DNA of 64,000 nucleotides from an uncultured Alphaproteobacteria bacterium (GTDB lineage: Bacteria > Pseudomonadota > Alphaproteobacteria > Rs-D84). The translations under genes were made by a program, and so were the position numbers. Location of the stretch: assembly GCA_944392535.1 (NCBI GenBank), contig CALXWY010000001.1, forward strand, positions 310,001-374,000. The letters run 5' to 3'. Position 1 is the stretch's first letter; each line of letters begins with the position of its first letter. Of the stretch, positions 2,750-59,592 are shown piece by piece. The notes under the pieces are model-generated. The model saw nothing but the letters and a program-made list of their open reading frames with translations, ran no database searches and was not told the DNA's origin.

Positions 2750-2849
2750 AATTATCCTTTTGTTTCGTATATTCAGCCTAGGACAATATTTCTGTGTTGT
2801 CAATTATTTTGTGTCATTATTACAAATGGTCGGCATTATGAATAATTGT

Positions 2850-2878
2850 TTGACTTTTGCGGATTTGTGGTATAAAAT
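2850..2878 (+). promoter_or_regulatory. Promoter for rpoA
   Basis: TTGACT (2850-2855), a 17-bp spacer and TAAAAT (2873-2878; the overlapping TATAAA is 2871-2876). It gives rpoA its own transcription start, needed because the upstream alpha-operon genes are terminated at 631-658. Confidence 0.7.
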
Positions 2879-2953
2879 TCGCGGGCGTGTATGGGAATTC
2901 TGTGCACCAGCCGATTGGCGAAAATGATAAACTAAGCCGAATGGAGGATTTAT

Positions 2954-3982
2954 ATGATTGAAAAAAACTGGGTCACGTTGATTAAGCCCAAAAAACTGAA
3001 AATAACAGTTGATGAAAACAACCCTAATCAAGCGAAATTGGTTGCCGAACCGTTGGAAAAAGGTTTCGGATTAACACTGGGGACGGCGCTGCGTCGGGTA
3101 TTGCTGTCGTCGTTACAGGGGTGTGCGCCGATTTATATTAAAATTGATGGGGTCCAGCATGAATTTTCCAGTCTGTCTGGTGTTCGTGAAGATGTGACGG
3201 ATATTGTATTGAACTTAAAAGGTGTGTATTTCAAGGCTTTGACCGAAGGTCAACACAAGGCAACATTAAAGGTCAAGGGTCCCGCCGTTGTTACCGCTGG
3301 CATGATTGAAACGTCGGGTGGCGTGGAAGTTATGAATAAAGATGCAGAAATTTGCACATTGGATGATGGGGCAAATTTAGATATGGAAATCACATTGAGC
3401 ACAGGTCGCGGATATGTGCCGGCGTCTGCACATGCAGAAGATTTGCCGTTGGGCGTTATCCCAGTTGATTCAATTTTTTCACCAATTTTGAATGTGGCAA
3501 CCGAAGTGTCGGAAACGCGTGTTGGACAGAGTACTGATTATGATAAATTGGAAATGACAGTCAAAACAAATGGTTCTGTATCGCCCGAAGATGCAATTGC
3601 GTTGGCGGCCCGTATTTTGACAGACCAATTGGTTGTCTTTATTAACTTTGAAGATCCAGCGCAAATTAATGCACCGACCGAAGAAGAAAAGGCCAAGGAT
3701 GCATTGCCATTTGATCCAAAATTGTTAAAGCATGTTGATGAACTGGAATTGTCGGTTCGTGCAAATAATTGCTTAAAGAACGACAAGATTAACTGGTTGG
3801 GCGAACTGGTTCAAAAGACCGAAGCGGATATGTTAAAAACACCGAACTTTGGTCGTAAATCTTTGAACGAAATAAAAGTTCAACTGGAAGCAATGGGGTT
3901 AAGTTTGGGAATGGATGTCCCAGGTTGGCCACCGGAAAATATTGCGGAATTGGCCAAAAAGTACGAAGACCCGTACAAGTAA
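2954..3982 (+). CDS. rpoA: DNA-directed RNA polymerase subunit alpha
   Basis: A full-length alpha subunit of 342 residues. The N-terminal dimerisation domain includes the [13 protein letters not shown] signature near residues 43-55, which nucleates RNA polymerase assembly. The alpha-CTD (about residues 270-325, with [14 protein letters not shown] and GRKSLNEIK) contacts UP elements and activators. A GGAGG ribosome site (2943-2947) precedes the ATG. It is read from its own promoter after the restriction-modification genes. The rplQ gene follows 200 bp later, also with its own promoter. No unusual substitutions were noticed. Confidence 0.98.
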
Positions 3983-4800: not shown

Positions 4801-4978
4801 GTGGGATGCAAAGTGTTCTGGCATTGGGATTTAAGAACCAATTGAGTGCGTATGGATTTTTATGCTAAAAAATTCCAACCGATTCGGTTGGAGTATGGCG
4901 AATATGTTGAATAAACCATGCAATTCACTTCAATTGTTATTAAACTGCAACCACCTGTTTTGGGTGGTGTTTGTTTTT
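4801..4978 (+). ncRNA. Orphan copy of a three-copy structured RNA element
   Basis: This gene-free stretch holds the most diverged copy of the element found before the Cys-repeat genes at 49714 and 59414. Helices in order: TCCAACC/GGTTGGA (4874-4880 with 4886-4892); GTATGG/CCATGC (4893-4898 with 4916-4921), which closes the conserved loop CGAATATGTTGAATAAA; a short AATT/AATT hairpin (4922-4925 with 4932-4935); and a terminator-like ACCACC/GGTGGT hairpin (4950-4968) followed by a T-rich run. No open reading frame follows on this strand, because the next gene (5106-5963) is convergent. It could be a remnant that lost its gene, or a free small RNA. The bases to 5105 show nothing else. Confidence 0.5.
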
Positions 4979-34200: not shown

Positions 34201-35095
34201 CAAATACACCATTCCAGATTGCACCACCAGCACCAGTTGCAGAGTTATTTGCAAAAGCAGCCCCTTCGTTGAAAACGAATTCACTATCTGTTGCAGAAAT
34301 AGCTCCACCACCTTTTACGTTTCCCTCAGAAGGTGCTAACGCTGTATTGCCTGTAAACAAAGCATCACCGTTAAATGTTGCTTGTGAGCCATATAAAGAA
34401 ATTGCGCCACCCTGTCTATCTGCAACATTATCTTCAAAAATAGATTTACCCTTGAAAGTCAAAATTGCATTACCATTATCTGGCCCTAATTTATTCGGGT
34501 CTTCTTGTACATCCGCCTTAGTTGAAGCGATTGCACCACCATAACCATCACCAGTTGCAGAAGAACCAGAAAAAGAATCTTCTGGCAAATTCCATGTCCC
34601 CTTATTCCCAGAGAACTTAACATTGTCACCAAAATTAACTACATTACCACCATACAAGAAAATAGCACCCCCAGCAGAGGCGATATTTCCATTAAATTCT
34701 ACATTATTTCCAATTTCTGTTGTTGCATATTCAGAGCTATTACCTTGGGCATATATAGCACCGCCCATTTCTGCGCCGTCACTTTCAGAAAGATTGGCAT
34801 CTTGTTCTTCCGTTCTTATATAAGAAGCATTATTTGAAAAGATTGTTCCATCTTCAACAACGACACTGCCAAGATGATTCTGAACGACACCTCCCGCAAC
34901 AGCATGGTACCAATCGCTATAAACGCCATCTACAGAATTAACATCACTTTTTCCAAGTGTTAACGTACTACCATTACTTACAAAATAATGATACCCATTA
35001 AAATTTTCAGTTGGTTCGGTAACGGTGTCCGCCAACGCAGGTGTAATAAGCAATGCAGGTAAAACCGAACATGCTTTTAGCCATTTATTAGACAT
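31202..35095 (-). CDS. Pmp-like autotransporter adhesin (GGAI repeats)
   Basis: 1297 residues, AAGGAGA ribosome site. Signal peptide (ends PALAD) then a passenger (about residues 30-960) built from many repeats of the GGAI/GGAIYN and F-x-x-N/N-x-A kind. These are the hallmark of chlamydial polymorphic outer membrane proteins and related beta-helical adhesins. A C-terminal autotransporter barrel (about 1015-1297: DYGLWVQGLYNHSKYNG...) ends LKFRYDF with the terminal Phe needed for BAM-mediated insertion. It is divergent from a related autotransporter at 35942, and the two barrels are clear homologues. The 5' third of the passenger looks more AT-rich than the barrel, hinting at passenger exchange. 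Confidence 0.88.
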   Translation of the reverse strand: MSNKWLKACSVLPALLITPALADTVTEPTENFNGYHYFVSNGSTLTLGKSDVNSVDGVYSDWYHAVAGGVVQNHLGSVVVEDGTIFSNNASYIRTEEQDANLSESDGAEMGGAIYAQGNSSEYATTEIGNNVEFNGNIASAGGAIFLYGGNVVNFGDNVKFSGNKGTWNLPEDSFSGSSATGDGYGGAIASTKADVQEDPNKLGPDNGNAILTFKGKSIFEDNVADRQGGAISLYGSQATFNGDALFTGNTALAPSEGNVKGGGAISATDSEFVFNEGAAFANNSATGAGGAIWNGVFEGSSSMTFNGSASFENNSANNGGAIYNEGKISLTGDTQFVENSASNTGGAIFNASEGVITEISNTLFQGNKAENHKDAAAELTTDVYAQGGAIYNRGSIGAINGDFINNSAHTKSETASKATANGGALALYQSTIESITGNFVGNAAIAEIVGEDKDYSDEMVSGDKLVSAGGGAIHIEGKWATGDVTKIGAINGNFENNSATGDAYANGGAIYIKAGTNTDVSIDNITGNFVNNKVIATTDNTDITKTSTGGAISIKESGHDATVAINGDFIGNSVTTNQTVANGGAIYNEGDLTVNGDFINNYASSQLNSKGSNGGAIYNNGILKLAENLTFSGNKADYAGGAIYNAESGNAIIKSSTFDGNSAQYGGAINNARLQSDSGGVLTITDSIFTNNRGWNGGAIRNQGEANIATINNTLFSANTSTNGGAIHNGAWGKVKIDGAEFSDNTATLTTDLMTGKTGMGQGGAITNAGVLEITNATFTGNSAAGRGGAIANVESGGSTGNITLSGTNTFANNTAAGVANDIYNNGTVTVASGTTTLGGGITGDGTLTIEDGATLNIGTTTVKQSEVTLDGTLTAQILNQGSYGRVETGNITVGDNGLLNLMFGSVGTYNFGVTVPEDKIVYNNAIYDATFGETGEITVAIKSVEEIAQGTNLSIGAANAVSIIANTNDDVLNTISLMAQQDLVAGKTGNAEKELAKLNPDDKPVAQSVASSVQNQVMSLAAGRMSGASVGRSGGDLTSADYGLWVQGLYNHSKYNGKFSGDTWGISVGADTLIDGKYTLGIGYAYNDTDVDSNSRDTGIESNSLFLYGQYKPNEWYVNAALNYTMANYDESADPYGFKRKTEYDVDSFGGQIMTGYDFASGFTPEVGMRYLHISQDAYQSWLGEVDALDTDYLTGVAGVKYAFEIESASELKFRPELRAAATYDFMSDAAVATVNAPGNVSYVIDADRLSRFGGEFGIGLAAQYRGLEVSLNYDLDLHEDYTSQTGMLKFRYDF

Positions 35096-49440: not shown

Positions 49441-49471
49441 AAAAAAATCGCCCAGTTGGGCGATTTTTTTT
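49441..49471 (+). terminator. Intrinsic terminator
   Basis: AAAAAATCGCCCA/TGGGCGATTTTTTT hairpin directly after the BOF-protein stop codon. Confidence 0.85.
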
Positions 49472-49475
49472 ATGG

Positions 49476-49505
49476 TTTGCATTTATACTGAATAAATTGT
49501 ATAAT
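49476..49505 (+). promoter_or_regulatory. Promoter of leader RNA element copy 2
   Basis: TTTGCA (49476-49481), 18 bp, TATAAT (49500-49505). Start expected near 49512, giving a leader of about 200 nt before the ATG at 49714. Confidence 0.65.
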
Positions 49506-49511
49506 TCATAT

Positions 49512-49713
49512 GGCAACAATGTGTTATTGTTGTGTGGCTTCACATCCACTGCAAAGCATCGCGATATGCGATGAAAAATTCTCCAACCAATCCGGGTTGG
49601 AGGGGTCTTGAATATATATTGAATAAAGACCGCAATTCTTTGCAGTTGTTGTGAACCTCCAACCACTTGAAATTATTTCCGGTGGTTTTTTGTTGCAAAA
49701 ATGGGGGTCAAAG
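49512..49713 (+). promoter_or_regulatory. Structured 5' leader (copy 2), candidate attenuator or riboswitch
   Basis: Hairpins in order: CAACAAT/ATTGTTG (49514-49520, 49526-49532); CATCGC/GCGATG (49557-49562, 49568-49573); CTCCAACC/GGTTGGAG (49581-49588, 49595-49602). Then GGTCTT/AAGACC (49604-49609, 49626-49631) closes the conserved GAATATATATTGAATA loop; CAATT/AGTTG (49633-49637, 49644-49648). An intrinsic terminator AACCAC/GTGGTT plus six T (49661-49691) ends it. The 8-mer CTCCAACC recurs at 49657-49664 overlapping the terminator's 5' arm. GGTTGGAG could therefore pair with either copy and choose between termination and read-through. The inferred controlled gene starts 22 bp after the T-run. 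Confidence 0.6.
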
Positions 49714-50466
49714 ATGAAAAAGATATTTGTCGCCATTGTCGCGTGTATGATATGCAATGTTGGTTGGGGTCTTCCAGTGGTATGCCGGGGTGACAAGTGT
49801 ATTCCAGGTGAGTGGTCCCCAACATATTCTGCCAATGACTGTCAGGTTTGTCCAGCCAACACATATCAAGATGGCTGTATTAATCCTAGTAAAGAGTGTA
49901 CCCCGTGTCCCGCGGGGACCGTCACGATTGGCGATACGTGGGCCGATCATGACAGTATTGATGATTGTATTCCGATGGAAACAGAAGAAATATCTTGTAA
50001 TCCGGGATATTATTTACCCGCAAACAGTCAACAATGCACACAATGTCCACGTAATCATTATTGTCCCGGTGGGACGTTTACAGAAACGACATCTGATTCT
50101 GGGATAACACAATGTCCAGATAACACAACATCACAGCCGGGTTCAGACAGCGCAGATGACTGTGTTCTGAATATACCGTGTAATCCGGGATATTATTTAC
50201 CCGCAAACAGTCAACAATGCACACAATGTCCACGTAATCATTATTGTCCCGGTGGGACGTTTACAGAAACGACATCTGATTCTGGGATAACACAATGTCC
50301 AGATAATATGTATTCACCACTGGGGTCAGATAGTGCGGATGATTGTGGGCGCGTGTTACATATTGGCGAATATATTTTATATCTGCGTACGGCAAAACTG
50401 ACCGTGCCATCACTGAATGTCCAGATTGGCAACACGATATATTATGGTGATATGTTCCCCGCGTAA
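49714..50466 (+). CDS. Secreted cysteine-repeat protein (TNFR/GCC2-GCC3-like), two repeats
   Basis: 250 residues; ATG at 49714 after GGGGGTCAAAG. Signal peptide (CNVGWG). The mature protein has Cys-rich units of the form C-x2-C-P-A-G-T...C and NPGYYLPANSQQCTQCPRNH (Ephrin-receptor/GCC2_GCC3-like spacing). The main unit is duplicated in tandem (61-residue period). The last 40 residues contain no Cys and form a strand-rich tail (YILYLRTAKLTVPSLNVQIG) shared exactly with the inverted paralogue at 58839-59414. Probably a surface or periplasmic disulfide-rich protein. It is preceded by the structured leader, the only clue to regulation. Confidence 0.8.
   Translation: MKKIFVAIVACMICNVGWGLPVVCRGDKCIPGEWSPTYSANDCQVCPANTYQDGCINPSKECTPCPAGTVTIGDTWADHDSIDDCIPMETEEISCNPGYYLPANSQQCTQCPRNHYCPGGTFTETTSDSGITQCPDNTTSQPGSDSADDCVLNIPCNPGYYLPANSQQCTQCPRNHYCPGGTFTETTSDSGITQCPDNMYSPLGSDSADDCGRVLHIGEYILYLRTAKLTVPSLNVQIGNTIYYGDMFPA
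49996..50123 (+). repeat. Intragenic direct repeat, unit A
   Basis: This 128-bp unit recurs 183 bp downstream (50179-50306) with no difference seen, encoding the same Cys-rich block twice in frame. Confidence 0.9.
50179..50306 (+). repeat. Intragenic direct repeat, unit B
   Basis: Second copy of the 128-bp unit at 49996-50123. The inverted paralogue at 58839-59414 has only one copy. Confidence 0.9.
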
Positions 50467-58838: not shown

Positions 58839-59220
58839 TTACGCGGGGAACATATCACCGTAATATATCGTGTTGCCAATCTGGACATTCAGTGATGGCA
58901 CGGTCAGTTTTGCCGTACGCAGATATAAAATATATTCGCCAATATGTAACACGCGCCCACAATCATCCGCACTATCTGACCCCAGTGGTGAATACATATT
59001 ATCTGGACATTGTGTTATCCCAGAATCAGATGTCGTTTCTGTAAACGTCCCACCGGGACAATAATGATTACGTGGACATTGTGTGCATTGTTGACTGTTT
59101 GCGGGTAAATAATATCCCGGATTACAAGATATTTCTTCTGTTTCCATCGGAATACAATCATCAATACTGTCGTGATCGGCCGCCGTATCACCAATTGTGC
59201 CGGTCCCCGCGGGACATGGC
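58839..59220 (-). repeat. Inverted repeat partner of 49905-50466
   Basis: Coding sequence near-identical to the 3' part of the 49714 gene, opposite strand, minus one 183-bp repeat unit. Confidence 0.85.
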
Positions 59221-59414
59221 TTACATGTGGGCAACATTCCTGAATGACATAACCTCTCATCCATATATGTATTAGCAGGACAAACTTCACAAGCTTCCCT
59301 ATCATGGGGTACTGGAAATGTTCCTTCTAAACACGGGTTGCTGCATATTTCTCCTGCACCATACGCGTTGTGGTACAGCATGCAAACAGCGATAATAAAT
59401 ATAAGCTTTCTCAT
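58839..59414 (-). CDS. Secreted cysteine-repeat protein, one repeat (inverted paralogue)
   Basis: 191 residues. Signal peptide (HNAYG-A), then Cys units (ICSNPCLEG, CEVCPANTYMDE, CKPCPAGTGTIG) leading into the same NPGYYLPANSQQCTQCPRNH block and the identical final 70 residues of the gene at 49714. The N-terminal third differs, so only the downstream part has been homogenised. It carries a single copy of the repeat. It is preceded by leader copy 3 and read on the minus strand, convergent with the MotB-like gene. Confidence 0.8.
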   Translation of the reverse strand: MRKLIFIIAVCMLYHNAYGAGEICSNPCLEGTFPVPHDREACEVCPANTYMDERLCHSGMLPTCKPCPAGTGTIGDTAADHDSIDDCIPMETEEISCNPGYYLPANSQQCTQCPRNHYCPGGTFTETTSDSGITQCPDNMYSPLGSDSADDCGRVLHIGEYILYLRTAKLTVPSLNVQIGNTIYYGDMFPA

Positions 59415-59586
59415 AATCCACCCCCCAACAAAAAACCACCGGAAATAATTTCAAGTGGTTGGAGGTTAGCAACTATCAAATACAATAGTGTCGTTTATTC
59501 AATATATTCACGAACCCTCCAACCGCAAGGTTGGAGTATGCGTATTTGCGAGGTTGCTACACCCCGTATCAGAAACTTTCTGATAC
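59415..59586 (-). promoter_or_regulatory. Structured 5' leader (copy 3), candidate attenuator or riboswitch
   Basis: On the minus strand: GTATCAGAA/TTCTGATAC hairpin (59586-59566); GTGTA/TACGC; CTCCAACC-ttgc-GGTTGGAG (59536-59517). TCGT/ACGA (59513-59510 with 59494-59491) closes the loop GAATATATTGAATAA; ACTAT/ATAGT (59489-59485 with 59476-59472). Terminator AACCAC...GTGGTT with T-run (59460-59429). CTCCAACC recurs at 59464-59457, overlapping the terminator stem. The terminator loop is identical to copy 2, whereas the helices ahead of it differ in sequence but keep pairing. The ATG follows the T-run by about 15 bases. Confidence 0.6.
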
Positions 59587-59592
59587 GTTCGT

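Follow-up and report, generated by a model that had tools for sequence, protein, structure and literature searches.

What governs the gene that starts at 49714 in a stretch of 64,000 nucleotides from an uncultured alphaproteobacterium (hereafter the window, i.e. the whole stretch analysed), and what is the RNA that precedes it? The gene (49714..50466, +) encodes a cysteine-rich repeat protein of 250 aa with a signal-like N-terminus, which matches the Pfam family PF07699 Ephrin_rec_like (E = 1.5e-12). A paralogous cysteine-rich protein of 191 aa, 77 % identical to it in alignment, is encoded on the reverse strand (58839..59414); the N-terminal parts of the two proteins differ and their last ~100 residues are identical, a pattern that recent duplication or gene conversion would produce. 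The first-pass annotation of this DNA had described the leaders of both genes as one structured RNA with a built-in terminator choice. The same order of helices was indeed found in front of 49714 (+) and 59414 (-), with helices that differ in sequence and still pair: P6 is GGTCTT/AAGACC in the first leader and TCGT/ACGA in the second, P7 is CAATT/AGTTG and CTAT/ATAG, respectively, and the GAATA..GAATAA loop is constant in both.

The leader of the first gene (copy 1, 49512..49692, +) is flanked by an upstream terminator (49441-49470) and by the ATG at 49714. It was one of the 11 seed copies of a covariance model, R1 (177 positions, 41 pairs), which it matched at 154 bits (E = 5.5e-33). An initial MAFFT alignment of 20 sequences (A1) misplaced one helix (P3), and an alignment of 11 of the 20 (A2) was used instead. 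The sequence upstream displays a promoter, TTGCAT (49477-49482) and TATAAT (49500-49505) separated by 17 nt; a promoter scan reported TTTGCA/TATAAT at 49476-49505 with 10 of 12 matches, as one of two sites where 0.9 was expected. As this promoter ends at 49505, the RNA is expected to start near the first helix, and in 88 of the 122 copies aligned in this study, a TATAAT box with at most one mismatch precedes the model start by 5-6 nt.

Two pseudoknots are built into the fold. P1 is a hairpin with a GTGTT loop (49514-49520/49526-49532); its seven pairs are all double-changed (i.e. changed on both sides) and 95.3 % of its cells are paired in the alignment. The loop of P2 (49534-49537/49546-49549) carries the 5' arm of PK1, a helix pseudoknotted with P2 that joins TTCACA (49539-49544) to TGTGAA (49650-49655); all six pairs of PK1 are double-changed, and the copies contain 65 distinct PK1 helices of at least 5 bp. 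Support for P2 itself is weaker (10.5 for own arms and 9.0 for swapped arms) because its G and C runs vary little. P3 brings together CTGCAAAG (49549-49556) and CTTTGCAG (49638-49645), again with six of six pairs double-changed and with 98 distinct helices; its 3' arm is the loop of P7, which constitutes the second pseudoknot, and its end bases overlap P2, P4 and P7. P4 (49556..49573) is an optional hairpin, with gaps in 24-26 of the 122 copies. P5 pairs CTCCAACC (49581-49588) with GGTTGGAG (49595-49602), has an energy of -12.3 kcal/mol (z = -4.4), contains the switch strand and is kept in nearly all copies (97.0 % of cells paired). It is followed by P6 (49604..49631), whose five pairs are all double-changed and whose internal loop GAATA..GAATAA is conserved unpaired, as is a C.C motif before P7, and then by P7 itself (49633..49648). 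In a subgroup of three leaders (L010, L011 at 2820-3002, and L017), an extra hairpin TGCG..CGCA sits atop the internal loop of P6.

The 3' end of the leader is a terminator (49661..49691, +) formed by AACCACT (49661-49667) and GGTGGTT (49681-49687), with an inner GAAA/TTTC pairing and a T run. This hairpin (-10.0 kcal/mol, z = -3.1) corresponds to helix 7 of the model; it was absent from the hits of a simple terminator scan, its stem being interrupted. The first-pass annotation had pointed out that the 8-mer CTCCAACC occurs twice, and it does so at 49581-49588 and 49657-49664, so that GGTTGGAG (49595-49602) is able to pair with either. The second of these pairings is the antiterminator helix P8, which joins GGTTGGAGG (49595-49603) to CCTCCAACC (49656-49664) and has AACC in common with the terminator.

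The alignment of 122 copies bears out the compensatory changes that the annotation had asked for, with double-sided changes in all seven modelled helices. Overall, 38 of the 41 modelled pairs are double-changed (1343 such cells), and 95.8 % of the cells in the nested helices are paired; none of 500 shuffles reached any of these measures, in an alignment that was fitted to the structure and with shuffle controls that are inflated by relatedness. Arm swapping and the analyses of P7 and P8 are free of this fit to the structure. Among the 108 copies used for arm swapping (14 of the 122 being unparsed), matched PK1 arms scored 16.8 on average against 9.5 when swapped, with 98 copies above the swapped 95th percentile, and matched P3 arms 18.1 against 10.6, with 94 copies above it. 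P7, which lies outside the model, is paired in 87.5 % of cells, one of its pairs being UA in 61 copies, AU in 49 and CG in 3. For P8, likewise outside the model, 98.1 % of cells are paired and 49 double changes were counted, a result reached by none of 500 shuffles. Its ninth position is G-C in 63 copies, T-A in 27, T-G in 5, A-T in 2 and unpaired in 3 (n = 100), and of the bases that face this position across P5, just 51 of 96 pair. The switch strand and the terminator arm are rewritten together in some copies, i.e. GGCAGGAGG/CCTCCTGCC in L084, GGCGAGAGGT/ACCTCTCGCC in L214, and further pairs GGCAGGAAG/CTTCCTGCC and GACTGGAAG/CTTCCAGTC. The terminator choice proposed from the window is thus backed by covariation of a helix that the model does not hold. 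A later parse recovered 152 of 160 copies (8 lost), with three of 51 P8 arm pairs looking mis-parsed; the 3' arms of PK1 and P8 are 0-1 nt apart in 145 of the 152. The leader copies are far beyond chance. A functionless repeat or mobile element was rejected as their explanation, as the 152 copies contain 142 distinct P3 arm pairs, yet these are paired.

The window holds further copies. Copy 2 (59429..59587, -; 131 bits, E = 1.3e-27), in front of the paralogous gene, is devoid of P4. The third copy that the annotation had counted exists at 4804..4974 (+) and was matched by the covariance model; its switch helix contains a mismatch (ACTGCAACC versus GGTTGGAGT) and no gene lies close behind, so that copy 3 is apparently decayed. 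The leader L010 has a damaged switch helix as well. A fourth, related element, similar to the Rfam family sRNA-Xcc1 (RF02221), lies at about 35473-35205 (-); it was missed by model R1 and matched RF02221 at 35.3 bits, below the cut-off. It has P1, matched arms for PK1 (TAAGAAAA/TTTTCTTA) and P3 (ACCAAAT/ATTTGGT), and P8 (35339-35330 with 35244-35235, -) followed by a hairpin and a T run; behind it, a gene whose product has a signal-like N-terminus starts at 35095. The first-pass annotation overlooked this element, the two pseudoknots, and the breadth of the gene set described below.

The leader, of about 180 letters, is abundant in its group. In the genome that holds the window, model R1 matched 19 places at E <= 8.6e-5 (best E 3.6e-34, a seed copy), the 20th row (E = 0.228) being the opposite strand of copy 2. 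Two genomes of the genus carry leader matches that coincide with those of named records, G059 with Candidatus Enterousia avistercoris (L144) in contig position and score, and G060 with Candidatus Enterousia intestinigallinarum (L101) in score and strand; we therefore take the genus to be Enterousia, of the order Rs-D84 (passages of PMC12306168, where these gut bacteria are described as probable obligate symbionts or parasites). Model R1 matched 44 of 59 genomes, i.e. 34 of 35 of the genus, nine of 18 of the order outside the family of the genus, and one of six more distant ones. The number of matches per genus genome ranged from 1 to at least 44 in genomes of about 1 Mb, the high counts being lower bounds because 46 candidates per genome were scored. 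Larger samples, searched with stricter filters, gave matches in 179 of 201 genomes of the order, in 19 of 385 of the class (15 from nine other families, besides four Enterousia genomes) and in two of 299 of the phylum, both of the own genus. The leader therefore extends beyond its own group into other alphaproteobacterial families, where the 15 genomes gave 29-82 bits; copies were inspected from 12 of these 15, G247, G399 and G565 (29-36 bits) being left out. Among the matches listed for the sequence pattern were uncultured Alphaproteobacteria, many of them from gut by title, Candidatus Enterousia and Rickettsiales-labelled bins. A single distant copy used as blastn query gave no match among plasmid and phage records. 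The leader is also present on three IMG/VR contigs (L242, L243 and L244), where the gene behind it encodes a signal-peptide-like protein or an ABC transporter. Searches of the literature for Enterousia with noncoding RNA, and for RF32 with Alphaproteobacteria and riboswitch, returned nothing, and none of the publications listed was recognisable as describing this leader.

Leaders also occur in tandem. In L155 (3936-5064, -), five full units, all complete with promoter, arms and terminator, follow one another, and a gene lies directly behind the last unit only; the pseudoknot arms of these units differ between units and match within each. Two tandem copies were found in each of L148 and L132, and three in L115.

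Most leaders precede a gene. A start codon lies at most 60 nt past the model end in 101 of the 122 copies, or 97 after dropping four spurious-looking frames, and these 97 downstream frames were used for the protein analyses; no gene start was found within 60 nt in 21 copies, about nine of which are upstream units of tandem arrays. The annotation had seen the leader as a control of disulfide-rich surface proteins, which holds for the two genes of the window and is too narrow for those behind other copies. Of the 97 controlled proteins, 17 match HTH_31 alone, five match Ephrin_rec_like, and the glycosyltransferase, outer-membrane barrel, YadA-anchor and GmrSD families account for one or two proteins each. 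When only products of 100 aa or more are counted, a simple hydrophobicity rule gives signal-like N-termini to 39 of the 54 controlled proteins, versus 112 of 504 neighbours. The own-genome set comprises, by eye, cysteine-rich repeat proteins and four small HTH-like-looking proteins; behind distant copies, lipoprotein-like, pilin-like and HTH-like proteins were seen, also by eye. Many genes behind leaders thus likely encode surface proteins or small regulators. Small HTH-like-looking proteins of 60-80 aa recur behind the leader (L072, L073, L074, L061, L144 and others), three of them nearly identical in the own genome. NF047948 of NCBIfam (Wmk family) matches three of the 97 at E up to 0.01.

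Is the family new? The annotation called it uncharacterised, and copy 1 has indeed no Rfam match at E up to 10; the label is not quite right, however, because sRNA-Xcc1 (RF02221; 87 positions, gathering cut-off 53 bits) appears to be a distant relative of which this family forms a branch. At E up to 1, the majority of the leaders tested had no RF02221 match, and those that did remain below its cut-off. RF02221 matched two leaders of other genomes at 33-35 bits (L023 and L005 being one and the same place) and eight places in the own genome, i.e. three leaders (33.7-37.8 bits) and five further elements (22.8-46.2 bits) not listed by model R1. Neither the matching leaders, at 33-38 bits, nor the best own-genome element, at 46.2, reaches the gathering score. 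Two SgrS matches in leaders (24.1 and 23.5 bits, cut-off 37) were taken as chance. All five further own-genome elements contain P8, and L246, L248 and L249 have clear matched PK1 and P3 arms; L246 is the only one of these five that model R1 matched (29.5 bits, E = 3.7e-5). The leader branch and sRNA-Xcc1 are linked by these elements of mixed kind.

The two share a fold and an order of conserved elements: the switch strand (GGCCGGGGGG in the sRNA-Xcc1 consensus), P6 with an AATA loop (AATACAA in sRNA-Xcc1), P7, the 3' arm of PK1 and the 3' arm of P8 (CCCCCGGCC following P7 in the consensus). In contrast to the leader branch, the Rfam model lacks P1-P5 and the pseudoknots. RF02221 matched 58 of 398 genomes of a phylum sample, 39 over the cut-off, and arms were sought upstream of 30 true members. 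PK1 and P3 arms taken jointly scored 38.1 on average against 28.6 when swapped, and 18 of the 30 loci exceeded the swapped 95th percentile, with several more by eye; an unanchored arm test, which is a weak one, placed seven loci above this percentile for PK1 and five for P3. sRNA-Xcc1 therefore appears to have the same core. Reciprocally, model R1 matched none of the 30 loci at E up to 1. The sRNA-Xcc1 loci also resemble the leaders in having a gene close behind: in 20 of 30, a Shine-Dalgarno motif and a gene follow within 75 nt; five of the seven protein starts tested gave SymE, Bro-N, KilA-N, P22_AR_N and Phage_pRha. They differ in the T run, of which at least four T follow P8 in only four loci and at least five T precede the switch strand in 23; the terminator is thus not placed alike across the wider family, and the upstream T run is perhaps an earlier terminator. 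In the loci L251-L280, this upstream T run often comes after a hairpin with a CCCG loop. The leaders and the sRNA-Xcc1 family thus appear to be related, if distantly, and sRNA-Xcc1 was placed upstream of symE, in the same direction, in integron cassettes (passages of PMC12444791). sRNA-Xcc1 is filed as an sRNA, and it is not called a leader in passages of PMC2996969, PMC12444791, PMC12189769 and PMC11701678 or in a reference entry of PMC8876359.

How would such an RNA act? GGTTGGAG pairs either in P5 or in P8, and AACC (49661-49664) either in P8 or in the terminator, so that P5 together with the terminator excludes P8. When the 3' arm of P8 has just been made and the terminator is incomplete, P8 minus P5 amounts to a median of +0.8 kcal/mol; once the terminator is complete, P5 and terminator are lower in 108 of 112 copies, by a median of 7.1 kcal/mol (copies with the common switch sequence, pseudoknots being ignored). 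By default, P5 and the terminator would form, polymerase would stop at the terminator hairpin and the gene would be off. Folding of the core, aided by a signal, would favour PK1 and P8, whose abutting 3' arms might form a continuous stack of about 16 bp, and read-through would turn the gene on. The leader has the mutually exclusive terminator and antiterminator helices, kept by covariation, that mark an attenuator, and, as in riboswitches, a sensor domain of conserved structure is coupled to an expression platform; its best reading is a candidate transcription attenuator or riboswitch. At a probability of about 70 %, we propose that the family likely switches transcription of downstream genes, the choice between terminator and antiterminator being set, by prediction, by whether a doubly pseudoknotted core folds around a signal, and that it is apparently a distant branch of sRNA-Xcc1.

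The sign of this switch has a close rival, in which the signal-bound core holds P5 so that the terminator forms, P8 winning and the gene being read when the signal is absent. P5 indeed lies inside the P3-enclosed core and is kept in nearly all copies, and P8 crosses PK1 and P3 when the structure is drawn; yet P5 and terminator are favoured without the core in all but a few copies, which leaves little to turn off, and the abutting arms of PK1 and P8 fit joint formation. We would accordingly give the opposite sign a chance distinctly below even. It is also conceivable, although somewhat doubtful, that the ligand of the core is an RNA-binding protein rather than a small molecule, and that this protein decides whether the terminator forms: a global regulator would fit the diversity of the genes and the high copy number per genome, and the conserved unpaired bases (GAATA/GAATAA, and C.C before P7) might be where it binds, but the partner protein is only putative and deeply pseudoknotted cores are more typical of small-molecule sensors. 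The near-equal energies of P5 and P8 at the decision point could instead point to an attenuator that senses nothing, with fixed or random read-through and uneven surface expression between cells, a form of bet-hedging that suits surface genes; fixed attenuation would, however, require neither the covarying pseudoknots nor the conserved internal loop, and we regard this as improbable. Attenuation coupled to a translated leader peptide is hardly credible. A start codon does lie 3-12 nt after GGAG in 53 of 114 copies, but the frames have no common length, and only nine of 122 leaders enclose an ATG frame of at least eight codons preceded by a Shine-Dalgarno motif; this candidate was rejected, as no conserved short translated ORF was found in the 122 leaders.

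A different kind of alternative is that the RNA is a free-standing small regulator acting in trans, as sRNA-Xcc1 reportedly does according to the title of a cited paper, and that the genes behind it are incidental. Each leader has its own promoter and terminator, and in L155 four of the five units have no gene directly behind them. sRNA-Xcc1 itself was found to be 88 nt long by RACE, which is less than the full leader, and ran at about 100 nt on Northern blots (passages of PMC2996969), and five clustered homologues about 380 bases apart were described in Xylella fastidiosa (a passage of PMC12189769). Against this stand the gene starts within 60 nt of most leaders, the Shine-Dalgarno motif and gene behind two thirds of the sRNA-Xcc1 loci, and the enrichment of signal-like products behind leaders; moreover, an attenuated leader also leaves a short stable RNA. 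A purely trans-acting role is thus rather unlikely, and the cis-acting switch described above is retained.

The signal for this switch would probably be a global one, because the genes behind the leaders belong to no single pathway, and none of the gene contexts pointed to a particular ligand. Common second messengers were considered. GGDEF had no match in 13 of 13 genus genomes and was found in seven of eight from other families of the order, and RelA/SpoT had no match in the same 13 and was found in six of those eight; c-di-GMP and (p)ppGpp were therefore rejected as signals in the genus and are unlikely, some of the genomes being incomplete. A diadenylate cyclase domain is present in nine of the 13 genus genomes and was not found in the own genome, where c-di-AMP was rejected as signal; the cyclase was not found in G000, G008, G009 and G012, and G000 and G012 have 18 leader matches each.

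Known leader systems offer partial parallels. T-box leaders are long leaders with a choice between terminator and antiterminator, as here, and the T-box model had no match in copy 1 at E up to 10. c-di-GMP riboswitches, like this leader, occur in many copies per genome and precede surface genes; the leader differs from them in the lack of any Rfam match for copy 1 and in the lack of GGDEF matches in the genus genomes. Fluoride, ZTP and preQ1 riboswitches resemble it in leader position, pseudoknotted core and competing terminator and antiterminator; the leader has another fold and length, two long-range pseudoknot helices, and genes that are not of one pathway.

The leader family is a reason to re-read the sRNA-Xcc1 family as leaders, since it joins a very strongly covarying leader to an Rfam family whose members were studied as trans-acting sRNAs. 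With up to 44 matches in about 1 Mb, it is dense enough in Enterousia for genome-wide control, and as a short RNA with its own promoter and terminator it is directly testable. We suggest tentatively, at somewhat less than even odds, that sRNA-Xcc1, filed as a virulence-linked sRNA acting in trans, is the visible end of a widespread class of cis-acting switches, made of a doubly pseudoknotted sensor and a switch of rival helices. In many proteobacteria, such switches would precede the genes for SymE and for phage antirepressors as well as cassette genes; in the Enterousia group, after the loss of c-di-GMP and (p)ppGpp synthesis, the switch would have been multiplied to as many as 44 copies per Mb and serve as a global controller of the cell surface. 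If this is true, some of the published work on sRNA-Xcc1 would have to be reconsidered, and a single signal would connect the surface of uncultured gut bacteria with SymE, with phage antirepressors and with cassette genes.
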